DNA from: Planctomycetota bacterium
GTDB taxonomy: Bacteria > Planctomycetota > Phycisphaerae > Phycisphaerales > SM1A02
Length of the DNA stretch: 41,837 nucleotides
Assembly (NCBI GenBank): GCA_022574595.1
Contig: JACZRS010000006.1
Span: forward strand, 1 to 41,837
Reading direction: 5' to 3'
The notes under the pieces were generated by a model. The model had not been told where the DNA came from and did no database searches. It saw only the letters and a list, made by a program, of their open reading frames with translations. The stretch's first letter is position 1. Each line of letters starts with the position of its first letter. This document shows, piece by piece, positions 25,882-29,084 of the stretch. Both the position numbers and the translations under genes were made by a program.

Positions 25882-27714
25882 ATGGAAGTGATTCACGCAT
25901 TACCCAAAATTCATCAAATTTTGTGCCAACTAATCGAAGTTAGTGCAAAACGTAAATGGATCAGTTACGAAGAGATCAATACAGCTCTTCCTGACGAAAT
26001 GGTCGATCCGGAAAAGATCGATGAGTTAATCGTAATTCTTGAAAGCCTCGGCATACGATTTATTGATGACTGTGAAATACGTCGATGCAACTTATCACCC
26101 TTTGTAGCGCCTCTTCAGACGAGCCTGAAGTTCAAGCGCGATGATCCAAACCAAAACGTCGCAGCACCCAAAGTTCGCATAGACGATGATGTCACTAGAG
26201 AAGACGCACCGGTTCCTGATTTTGCGGATGATCCCGAACACCAAGCTCATCCCCAAGAGGAAATTCTTGGGGAAGCTGAAGCACGCGCTGTAATTGAAGA
26301 AGCAATCGCTGATAGCGGCTCTAAACGCATAGACGATCCTATTCGTATGTATCTGACGCAAATGGGAACTATCCCTCTGCTTACACGCGAACAGGAAATT
26401 CGGCTCGCCAAGAAAATTGAAACCACTCGGATGGTATTTAGGCGACGGGTACTGGAGTCAAATTACTCTGCATCCCAAGCAGTAGAAATTCTTCAGCAAG
26501 TACACGAAGGCAACTTGCCCTTTGATCGAACCATGCGGATTTCCACAGCCGAGGAAAACGCCAAGGACAAAATCGCTTTTCGTATCCCAGTCAACCTTGT
26601 AACCGCAAGAGGCTTACTTAATCTTGACAATCAAGATTGGGATGTTTTAGAGCAAGAAGACTCCTCGCAAGAAGCAGAAGAATTAGCTGCAGCTCAAATG
26701 AAGGCCCGTAGGCGTAAGGTTGCTACGCTATTAGAAGAATGTTGCTTGCGCACGGGACGTATTCAACCGCTGTTCCGCAAGCTCCAAGCCATCAACAAGA
26801 AGATTAAACAACTCCAGCGAGAATTAACCCGAGCAGAAAAATACCCCGACAAATACGATCCCGAAGATATCTATGTAATGGGTGAAGAACTCGATGGGCT
26901 GCGAGGTCTGGTCCTGGAAGAGCCTGAAAGTCTTGATCAGCGCGTAAAAAATATCGTAACAGTCTTTAACGAATATGAATTGGCTAAACGCGATCTTTCT
27001 GCAGGCAACCTTCGCCTTGTGGTTTCGATCGCAAAGAAATATCGTAACCGAGGCCTACCTTTCCTTGACGTTATTCAAGAAGGCAACACCGGCTTAATGC
27101 GCGCCGTAGACAAATACGAATATAAGCGTGGTTACAAATTTTCAACCTACGCAACCTGGTGGATACGCCAAGCCATAACCCGCGCCATCGCAGATCATGC
27201 TCGGACGATTCGTGTGCCCGTACACATGATCGAAACTATGTCCAAACTGCGAACAATACAAAAGCACTTACAGCAAGAACTTGGTAGAGATCCAACAATG
27301 GATGAACTCGCTGAACGCGCCCAGATGCCGGTGGATGAGACCCGTCGAGTTATGAAGATCTCACGTCACCCCATCAGTTTGGATCGGCCTGTTGGTGAAT
27401 CTGAAGATTCACAGTTCGGCGACTTTATCGAAGATGAACGCCAGGAAGCGCCATCAGAAAGCGCAACCAGCGAGATGCTCCGTGTCAGAATCAACGATGT
27501 GCTGAAAACTCTTACATACCGTGAACGAGAAATCCTTAAGCTCCGTTACGGCATTGGTGATGGCTATACATACACCCTCGAAGAGGTTGGTAGAATCTTC
27601 AAAGTAACCCGAGAACGCGTGCGTCAGGTTGAATCCAAAGCTATTCGTAAGCTGCAGCACCCCGTAAGAAGCCGTCGCTTGTCGAGTTTCCTTACAGGTC
27701 AGGGTGAAACATAA
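25882..27714 (+). CDS. rpoD: Primary RNA polymerase sigma factor (sigma-70/RpoD)
   Basis: The 610-residue product directs RNA polymerase to housekeeping promoters. The N-terminal 80 residues have region 1.1 character ([22 protein letters not shown]). Region 1.2 is [23 protein letters not shown]. An acidic/charged non-conserved insert follows, then regions 2.1-2.4 ([38 protein letters not shown]), region 3 ([18 protein letters not shown]), 4.1, and region 4.2 ([20 protein letters not shown]), ending near residue 610. All parts of a group 1 sigma are thus present. The ATG follows ATGGAGCA. It probably shares a transcript with dnaG, and a strong terminator follows. Confidence 0.96.
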
Positions 27715-27754
27715 AATAAGGCTTTTTGTAAACTATTAGTAATTAACAAGTAAC

Positions 27755-27785
27755 GGCTAGTGATATATTTCACTAGCCATTTTTC
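27755..27785 (+). terminator. Rho-independent terminator after rpoD
   Basis: GGCTAGTGA (27755-27763) pairs perfectly with TCACTAGCC (27770-27778) around a 6-base loop, followed by ATTTTTCTT. This is the clearest intrinsic terminator in the window, and it ends the dnaG-rpoD transcript. Confidence 0.88.
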
Positions 27786-27864
27786 TTATATGGGGCAATT
27801 ACAGGTAGAACCGTTTGATTGCAAATTGCGTATAAACAACTAGAGATATCTCGTAGAAATGGGC

Positions 27865-27995
27865 GCCCCTCGGGGAGCCTCCCGCAAGACGCCAGCCAGG
27901 CATTCGTCAGGCACGGACCCCCGGAACCCCGGCCCCCGGCCTCCGGAAGCATGACGAGACTCGCTGGCCTCACCCGGGCCTATCCCCGACGGGGC
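27865..27995. ncRNA. Candidate GC-rich rod-shaped structured RNA, unidentified
   Basis: This very GC-rich stretch sits in a moderate-GC neighbourhood and folds end to end. GCCCC and TCGGGGA (27865-27876) pair with TCCCCGA and GGGGC (27983-27995) with one bulge. GCC (27877-27879) can pair with GGC (27977-27979), GCCAGC (27891-27896) with GCTGGC (27963-27968), TCGTCA (27904-27909) with TGACGA (27952-27957), and CGGA with TCCG further in. A rod about 130 nt long results. It lacks the SRP RNA tetraloop motif. A 6S-like regulator is only a hypothesis. No coding frame here is credible. Strand cannot be decided from the fold alone. Confidence 0.5.
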
Positions 27996-28052
27996 TGCCT
28001 CTATAACTATCTATCAACAAGACATTGGTAAAACCACTACTATCAACTTGTC

Positions 28053-29084
28053 ATGGCTGATGATGTGCTGCTGCTTTATGACGATTTGATGTTGGAACAT
28101 GATACCGGCCCGGGCCATCCTGAGCGCGCAGATCGGCTGCGGGCTATTCGTGATAGCTTGCGTGAACAACCTGTTGCAGGAACGCGCTGGGAAAAACCCC
28201 AACCAGCTACAAATGAGCAGATCGAATTAGTACACACTAAAGCGCATGTAAAGCAAATTGAATCGCTACGAGGTAAATCCTTATCAATAGATGCGGACAC
28301 GTTGGTTTCTCCAAGAAGTGTGGAAGCAGCTCACATTGCCTGTGGTGCTGCAATTGATGGGGTAATCGCTATTACAACGGGTTCTACTAAACGAGCATTC
28401 GCTTTGATACGCCCACCGGGGCATCATGCAGAAACTCATCGCGCTATGGGATTTTGTCTTTTTAATAATATAGCTGTCGCTGCGGCTTATGCGCATAGTG
28501 AACTAAAGCGCAAACGCATCTTAATAATAGATTGGGATGTCCACCACGGTAACGGCACACAACAAGCATTCTACAACACCAAAGACATCCTATTTTTCAG
28601 CACACACCGATCCCCCTTTTATCCCGGAACAGGAGCTGCGGATGAAGTTGGTGCAAACAACGGTATAGGTTATACGGTCAATATTCCTATCCCGCCCGGC
28701 TTTGGCGATGGTGAGTATCACGAAATTTACTCACAATTACTAGTGCCGATTGCAGACGCTTACAAACCTGATTTAATTCTAGTATCCGCCGGCTTTGATT
28801 CCCATCAAAACGACCCACTCGGCGGAATGAAAGTTACTGATAACGGCTTTGCCAATCTCTGCTCAATAGTTTGTGATATCGCAAACCGCCACACGGATGG
28901 CCGACTAGCCCTAATCCTCGAAGGCGGCTACAACACAAACGCATTAGCAACAAGCACCCGCGCTTGTCTTGAAGTTCTAACTGGTTCATCTGAACCATGT
29001 ACTCCGCCGAACCCCCACTACGATCAGCTATATGAAGTTATAAATCTAGTGAAAAGCAATCACAAACCCCATTGGCCAATTTGA
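28053..29084 (+). CDS. Histone deacetylase family protein (class II-like deacetylase)
   Basis: The 343-residue product has the arginase-like zinc deacetylase fold. Catalytic motifs are RPPGHHAE (His124, His125), IDWDVHHGNGTQ (zinc ligands Asp162 and His164), SAGFDSHQNDPLG (zinc ligand Asp249) and LEGGYN (Tyr293), so the active site looks complete. Bacterial members remove acetyl groups from acetyl-polyamines, acetoin-related proteins or lysines. Which applies cannot be read from the sequence, and no polyamine or acetoin genes are nearby. There is no signal peptide, so it should be cytoplasmic. The ATG at 28053 is the first plausible start. It converges with the minus-strand propeller lipoprotein gene, 41 bp away. 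Confidence 0.92.
   Translation: MADDVLLLYDDLMLEHDTGPGHPERADRLRAIRDSLREQPVAGTRWEKPQPATNEQIELVHTKAHVKQIESLRGKSLSIDADTLVSPRSVEAAHIACGAAIDGVIAITTGSTKRAFALIRPPGHHAETHRAMGFCLFNNIAVAAAYAHSELKRKRILIIDWDVHHGNGTQQAFYNTKDILFFSTHRSPFYPGTGAADEVGANNGIGYTVNIPIPPGFGDGEYHEIYSQLLVPIADAYKPDLILVSAGFDSHQNDPLGGMKVTDNGFANLCSIVCDIANRHTDGRLALILEGGYNTNALATSTRACLEVLTGSSEPCTPPNPHYDQLYEVINLVKSNHKPHWPI

Follow-up and report, generated by a model that had tools for sequence, protein, structure and literature searches.

What is the nature of the strongly GC-rich, self-complementary stretch of DNA that separates the gene of the primary sigma factor from a histone-deacetylase-family gene in a member of the Planctomycetota? 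An original prediction, made from the letters alone, had placed a rod-shaped non-coding RNA behind the rpoD terminator and guessed that it might be 6S-like. We addressed the question in the window, i.e. the whole stretch of 41,837 nucleotides that was analysed, which is carried by contig C25 of a 4.09-Mb genome. Among named records, the closest relatives of its rpoD are mostly from Phycisphaerales and other Planctomycetota.

The locus and its predicted fold

In the window, rpoD, its terminator, the rod and the deacetylase gene all lie on the plus strand (Table 1). The rod follows the intrinsic terminator of rpoD, as had been proposed, with an AT-rich stretch between the two. For the product of the deacetylase gene, a match to NCBIfam at E ≤ 0.001 was not found. 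The island itself stands out clearly: the top GC segment of the window is 27861-27999, with a score of 54 against 29 for the runner-up, and the GC content of the rod (27860-28003) is 73.6%, against 46.6% for the window as a whole. Most rpoD loci of the family (L070-L098) have a GC content of 56-70%, the exceptions being L074 (51%) and L097 (44%).

Table 1. Features of the rpoD-deacetylase region, in positions of the window
Feature	Position	Strand	Details
rpoD, primary sigma factor	25882..27714	+	Pfam sigma-70 regions 1.1, 1.2, 2, 3 and 4; TIGR02393 above cut-off
Intrinsic terminator of rpoD	27755..27788	+	stem-loop 27755-27778, then T-rich tail
Promoter-like pair, GAACCG - 17 nt - TATAAA	27808..27836	+	putative promoter of the rod transcript
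Candidate rod RNA	27861..28001	+	GC island 27861-27999; match to covariance model R1 27855-28000
Outer helix, 5' side (CCCCUCGGGGA)	27866..27876	+	partner 27983-27993
Helix 3, 5' side	27877..27880	+	partner 27976-27979 in the consensus fold
Middle helix, GCCAGC-C-AG	27891..27899	+	partner 27960-27968
Inner helix, UUCGUCA	27903..27909	+	partner 27952-27958; two pairs changed on both sides
Variable tip	27910..27951	+	CCCCCGGAACCCCGG-type low-complexity repeat; similar ones at other places in the genome and also in relatives
Outer helix, 3' side	27983..27993	+	partner 27866-27876
Histone-deacetylase-family gene	28053..29084	+	Pfam PF00850, E 7.3e-98; ATG 51 nt past the last rod base

When the plus strand was scanned in 20-nt steps, the most stable 140-nt stretch was found at the rod (-75.3 kcal/mol), the next distinct one reaching -59.1 kcal/mol. 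Folding of 27860-28003 gave -75.8 kcal/mol (z -3.8), and none of 200 shuffled sequences was equally stable; in a repeat with 1000 shuffles, z was -3.3 and three were. The predicted structure, with 49 pairs, is a single unbranched rod. It shows a closing stem, a bulge and several inner stems, in agreement with the original description.

Distribution of the rod in related genomes

In a DNA search with the spacer over 181 genomes of the family, the single match at E ≤ 1e-6 beyond the genome itself was in G104 (78% over about 66 bases). A covariance model, R1, was built from the window and G104 sequences. Over the same 181 genomes it returned a third copy in G105 (130.6 bits) and a weak match in G030 (21.3 bits). 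The rod is found in 3 of the 181 genomes, with one R1 copy in the genome of the window. G104 and G105 belong to one neighbouring genus, g37, and their loci are referred to below as L180 and L188. No match was found in the third g37 genome, G036; as a contig end truncates its rpoD match and a deacetylase match is absent, its locus is uninformative.

Over 400 genomes of the order (E ≤ 0.1), R1 matched only the genome of the window, G104 and, weakly, G210 (24.2 bits). We regard the G030 and G210 matches as chance, as they lie in long open frames and involve inner model positions only. In other genera, R1 was run over 29 rpoD and 29 deacetylase loci, a few of the latter cut by contig ends, and found nothing convincing. 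The best of these deacetylase loci (L055, 18.5 bits, E 0.046) has its hit just before the deacetylase match, yet within the reading frame of the deacetylase gene itself. The best score over 80 named rpoD loci, which partly duplicate loci of the other genome set, was 14.1 bits (E 1.3). Since the searches of the large sets used strict filters, with at most 17 (181 genomes) or 7 (400 genomes) candidates scored per genome, distant copies of the rod may be missed.

A DNA search with the whole rod gave matches at E ≤ 1 in 52 of 61 relatives; those listed were mostly short matches to the tip or to other GC-rich sequence, and among them the whole rod was recovered only in the genome of the window. Within that genome, the tip recurs over 35-37 nt only, at two places with E < 0.01, and the arms occur once. 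Short GC-rich repeats of the CCCCCGGAACCCCGG or (TCCGGGGG)n type were seen at 27914-27948 of the window and at L002, L003, L010, L012, L013 and L015. No match to the rod was found in plasmid and phage collections; a 20-nt core pattern is present in two viral contigs, which lack the rod (best R1 score 12.2 bits).

The order rpoD, terminator or stem-loop, rod and deacetylase gene is common to the window, L180 and L188. In L180 a stem-loop with a T-rich tail, read by eye, occupies the equivalent position behind rpoD, and in 3/3 genomes the deacetylase gene starts about 50 nt behind the rod on the same strand. A deacetylase match was present in 30 of the 61 genomes and was adjacent to rpoD only in that of the window, as compared by eye and within the limits set by draft contig breaks. 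Three of the others have no rpoD match, and in the rest the deacetylase match is on another contig or at least 18 kb from rpoD.

Conservation of the arms and of their pairing

The rod also folds in the relatives (z -3.4 in L180 and -4.8 in L188). We scanned 54 stretches beside rpoD or deacetylase genes, including those of the window, L180 and L188, coarsely, with 30 shuffles per stretch. In three of them, from L077 (z -6.3), L089 and L049, the best z was below that of the stretch of the window, whose own best value came from the terminator end and not from the rod; the best z of L180 was only -2.7. Eight of the 54 had more pairs in an unbranched hairpin than the stretch of the window. Stability or rod shape by itself is not rare among GC-rich relatives. 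The L077 locus, from another genus, carries a palindromic repeat of very high stability, consisting of GCACGGCCAGGATGGCCGTGGCACCC and an inverted copy of it, about 150-330 nt past the rpoD stop; this repeat is unrelated to the rod.

Between the window and L180, 42/50 positions of the 5' arm (84%) and 30/46 of the 3' arm (65%) are identical, as are 5/13 of the tip. At four-fold degenerate sites, identity is 61/184 (33%) in rpoD and 32/119 (27%) in the deacetylase gene, whose proteins share 215/341 residues. The window has a GC fraction of 0.42-0.48 at these sites, and L180 one of 0.81-0.84. Since the arms exceed the identity of four-fold sites, and are GC-rich despite the low four-fold GC of the window, they are probably under selection.

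Outside the rod, a gapped alignment of the flanks gave 39/73 and 28/55 identical positions, figures that are inflated by the gaps. The 53 nt on the 5' side are identical to L180 at 30/53 positions without gaps, against a null mean of 12.3 and a maximum of 24 in 3002 placements, the length of this block having been picked after the alignment was seen. Identity is densest beside the rod (15 of the 20 nearest nucleotides). The spacer between the rod and the ATG is at chance identity (12/48 when aligned from the ATG, 11/50 when aligned from the rod).

The RNAalifold consensus of the window and L180 reached -43.3 kcal/mol, compared to -21.2 ± 3.9 kcal/mol for 1000 column shuffles that kept conserved and variable columns apart, none of which was as low. 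It contained four pairs changed on both sides, against a shuffle mean of 1.7, and at least four were seen in 70/1000 shuffles; in a second column-shuffle control, four were reached in 39/500. With L188 added, the three-sequence alignment gave 46 consensus pairs, of which 6 changed on both sides and remained paired. As many were seen in 1/500 shuffles, and alignments slid out of register gave 0-2. Some compensatory changes, which the original prediction had proposed to look for, are seen, but since the arms of L180 and L188 are identical to each other, the covariation amounts in essence to a single comparison between two lineages. In the window, 12 of the 46 pairs are unformed (10 mismatches and 2 gaps), and 8 of the 12 belong to the basal helix, where the stem of L180 and L188 is longer. 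A hand-chosen core of 33 pairs, for which 13 of the 46 were dropped (11 of them unformed in the window), had 5 pairs changed on both sides (3/500 shuffles; slid controls 0-1) and 1 of 99 cells unpaired.

Among the individual helices, the outer one has 9 invariant pairs out of 11, one changed on both sides and one that is a C-C mismatch in the window. Seven of the eight pairs of the middle helix are invariant, the remaining one being A-U in the window and G-C in L180 and L188. For helix 3, the single-sequence fold of the window favours an alternative pairing. The consensus has an open loop, about 10 by 9 columns in size, because the sequences differ in their pairing at this place; the single-sequence folds have only small loops. 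The rod folds well on both strands, the plus strand being slightly favoured (z -5.55 vs -4.56), and some G-U pairs are kept on the plus strand (6 G-U cells, against 4 on the minus strand). As the fold is kept in a neighbouring genus, the rod is probably a real RNA element, conserved and narrowly distributed.

Possible roles of the rod

If the rod is an RNA, what does it do? The explanation that we tentatively prefer, without giving it even odds, is that the rod is a structured RNA of the plus strand that forms the 5' leader of the deacetylase mRNA and acts in cis, with a putative start site, transcript and cis effect. RNA polymerase would most likely start about 18 nt upstream of the rod, behind the promoter-like pair, copy the rod and continue into the deacetylase gene, because a terminator is absent behind the rod: a scan of the window found no terminator-like site between the rod and this gene, which follows shortly on the same strand. 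Of the promoter-like pair, GAACCG, with which the conserved upstream block opens, is identical in L180 (6/6), the 17-nt spacer is mostly different, and TATAAA is replaced by AATAGG; a scan with the sigma-70 consensus found no promoter at the upstream block. In the mRNA the rod would most likely be a 5'-proximal barrier or a ribonuclease landing site, and it would set the stability or the output of the deacetylase mRNA. In the predicted folds, one each for the window and L180, all pairing partners of the start region lie outside the rod. This gives no sign of start-codon masking and favours a role in mRNA stability.

The leader explanation is consistent with the shared gene order in the three genomes, with arms that are better conserved than four-fold sites and keep their GC in a genome of low four-fold GC, and with a consensus energy below all shuffles together with the double changes and the slight strand preference. 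The conserved upstream block and the lack of a terminator-like site before the gene point the same way. Against it, the nucleotides from the rod to the ATG are unconserved, and the rod was not found to recur before homologous genes at independent loci, i.e. at the 29 deacetylase loci of other genera. The unformed pairs of the window, the single two-lineage comparison, the frequency with which shuffles reach four double changes and the identity of the gapped flanks also weaken it.

The main rival to a cis-acting leader is an independent small RNA gene with its own promoter, giving a rod of about 140-160 nt whose 3' end would be made by processing or by Rho and which would act in trans or on a protein, the start of the deacetylase transcript being separate. 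The conserved stretch comprises the upstream block and the rod and ends at the 3' end of the rod, and the deacetylase genes of other genera lack the rod. As conservation is lost right behind the rod, this remains a serious rival, though we consider it rather unlikely: a terminator-like site is missing, and in each of the three genomes the deacetylase gene starts about 50 nt further on, on the same strand. An unlikely proposal, on present data, is a lineage-specific RNA family beside rpoD in two genera, transcribed from its own promoter, of the GAAC type that alternative (ECF) sigma factors use, and acting in trans, for instance by binding a protein; the GAAC motif is presumably similar to the -35 element of ECF promoters.

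Could the inverted repeat instead work as DNA, as a protein-binding site, a cruciform or the boundary of a transcription unit? Both strands fold well and the strand preference is small, as this would require, but some plus-strand G-U pairs are kept, and the length and the internal loops of the rod would be unusual for an operator. We consider such a role distinctly unlikely. It is improbable, too, that the rod is the functionless remnant of a mobile or repetitive palindromic element. Its tip is a dispersed GC-rich repeat, and L077 offers another palindromic repeat adjoining rpoD in a different genome, but the arms are more conserved than four-fold sites and are single-copy, unlike the several genome copies of a dispersed palindromic or MITE-like repeat. 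With recurrence limited to the tip and no match found in the plasmid and phage collections, the rod is unlikely to be a mobile element.

Coding by the rod, as a short peptide (ATG at 27859, GTG in L188) or as an N-terminal extension of the deacetylase, is very improbable. A start and the first residues MGA are shared, and in L180 and L188 the deacetylase frame is stop-free across the rod, the last in-frame stop preceding it. In the window, however, a TAA at 28029-28031 interrupts this frame between the rod and the ATG. L180 and L188, whose 3' arms are identical, are out of frame with each other through a 1-nt difference in the tip, and a 2-nt gap puts the relatives out of frame with the window. 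No open frame across the rod is longer than 70 aa in the window, and these frames are not conserved in the relatives. The shifting frames make a peptide unlikely.

Comparison with 6S and SRP RNAs

The rod can hardly be 6S RNA or related to 6S RNA, since its rod shape and its adjacency to rpoD are the only features in favour, RF00013 does not match it, its single-sequence folds lack a wide bubble, although the consensus leaves a loop open, and, going most of the way to a refutation, the genome has another 6S locus. 6S RNA binds sigma-70 RNA polymerase and templates pRNA, and it has a large central single-stranded bubble between the closing and terminal stems. Closeness to rpoD is irrelevant to 6S identity. 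RF00013 found nothing in the window at the gathering score, in 27700-28100 at E ≤ 10, or in L180 and L188 at E ≤ 1. A 6S candidate was found at C30:39689-39835 of the same genome, G000 (L009, 1501-1647, minus strand), which scores 21.7 bits with RF00013 (cut-off 46.4). We built a lineage profile from RF00013 matches of six other Phycisphaerales (L194-L196 and L198-L200), two of them above the Rfam cut-off. It detects L009 with E 5.8e-22, one of four loci found outside the building set, and has no hit on the rod. The predicted fold of L009 has a closing stem and a wide bubble. The rod was accordingly rejected as the 6S RNA of this genome: of the original prediction of a structured 6S-like RNA, the structured RNA candidate stands, with its homologues, conserved arms and some compensatory changes, and the likeness to 6S does not.

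Among 39 genomes of the order, RF00013 gave matches at E ≤ 1 in 13, two above and 11 below the cut-off, and none in 26. At the Rfam threshold, 6S RNAs of this order seem to go undetected, and the finding that 11 of 13 matches are below the cut-off is directly usable for annotation.

Bacterial small SRP RNA (RF00169) is also an unbranched rod. Its model did not match the rod, whose poorly conserved tip gives no conserved tip domain. The SRP candidate of the genome is at C9:17476-17572 (37.2 bits, cut-off 40); in g37, RF00169 is above the cut-off in G036 and G105 and absent from G104. No family of Rfam release 15 was above its cut-off on the rod, in agreement with the original statement that it matched no recognisable RNA. 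A hit of ctRNA_pGA1 on the minus strand over the 5' arm (27849-27901, 26.7 bits, E 0.0024) was rejected, being far below the cut-off of 45.

Relation to known systems

No report of the rod RNA was found among the literature matches listed, and little was found on small RNAs of Planctomycetota. The signal of interest is a GC-rich rod that was kept while the four-fold sites drifted to low GC. The rod and 6S RNA are alike in being long rods of comparable length with a closing stem; they differ in that the rod is unmatched by the 6S model and the genome has its own 6S RNA candidate elsewhere.

GC-rich intergenic islands have yielded structured RNA candidates (Stav et al. 2019, PMC6429828). Like those described there, the rod is non-coding, richer in GC than its genome, and has a conserved fold and an association with a gene. 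It differs from them in staying below every cut-off of Rfam release 15 and in its restriction to three genomes of two genera. The msiK motif (Weinberg et al. 2010, PMC2864571) is, like the rod, a long hairpin in a potential 5' UTR; it features an 11-nt bulge as well as a ribosome binding site in its basal stem, neither of which was found in the rod. The Rhodopirellula-1 motif is given there for Proteobacteria and Planctomycetes and without an Rfam accession (PMC2864571), and occurrence in Planctomycetes is what it shares with the rod.
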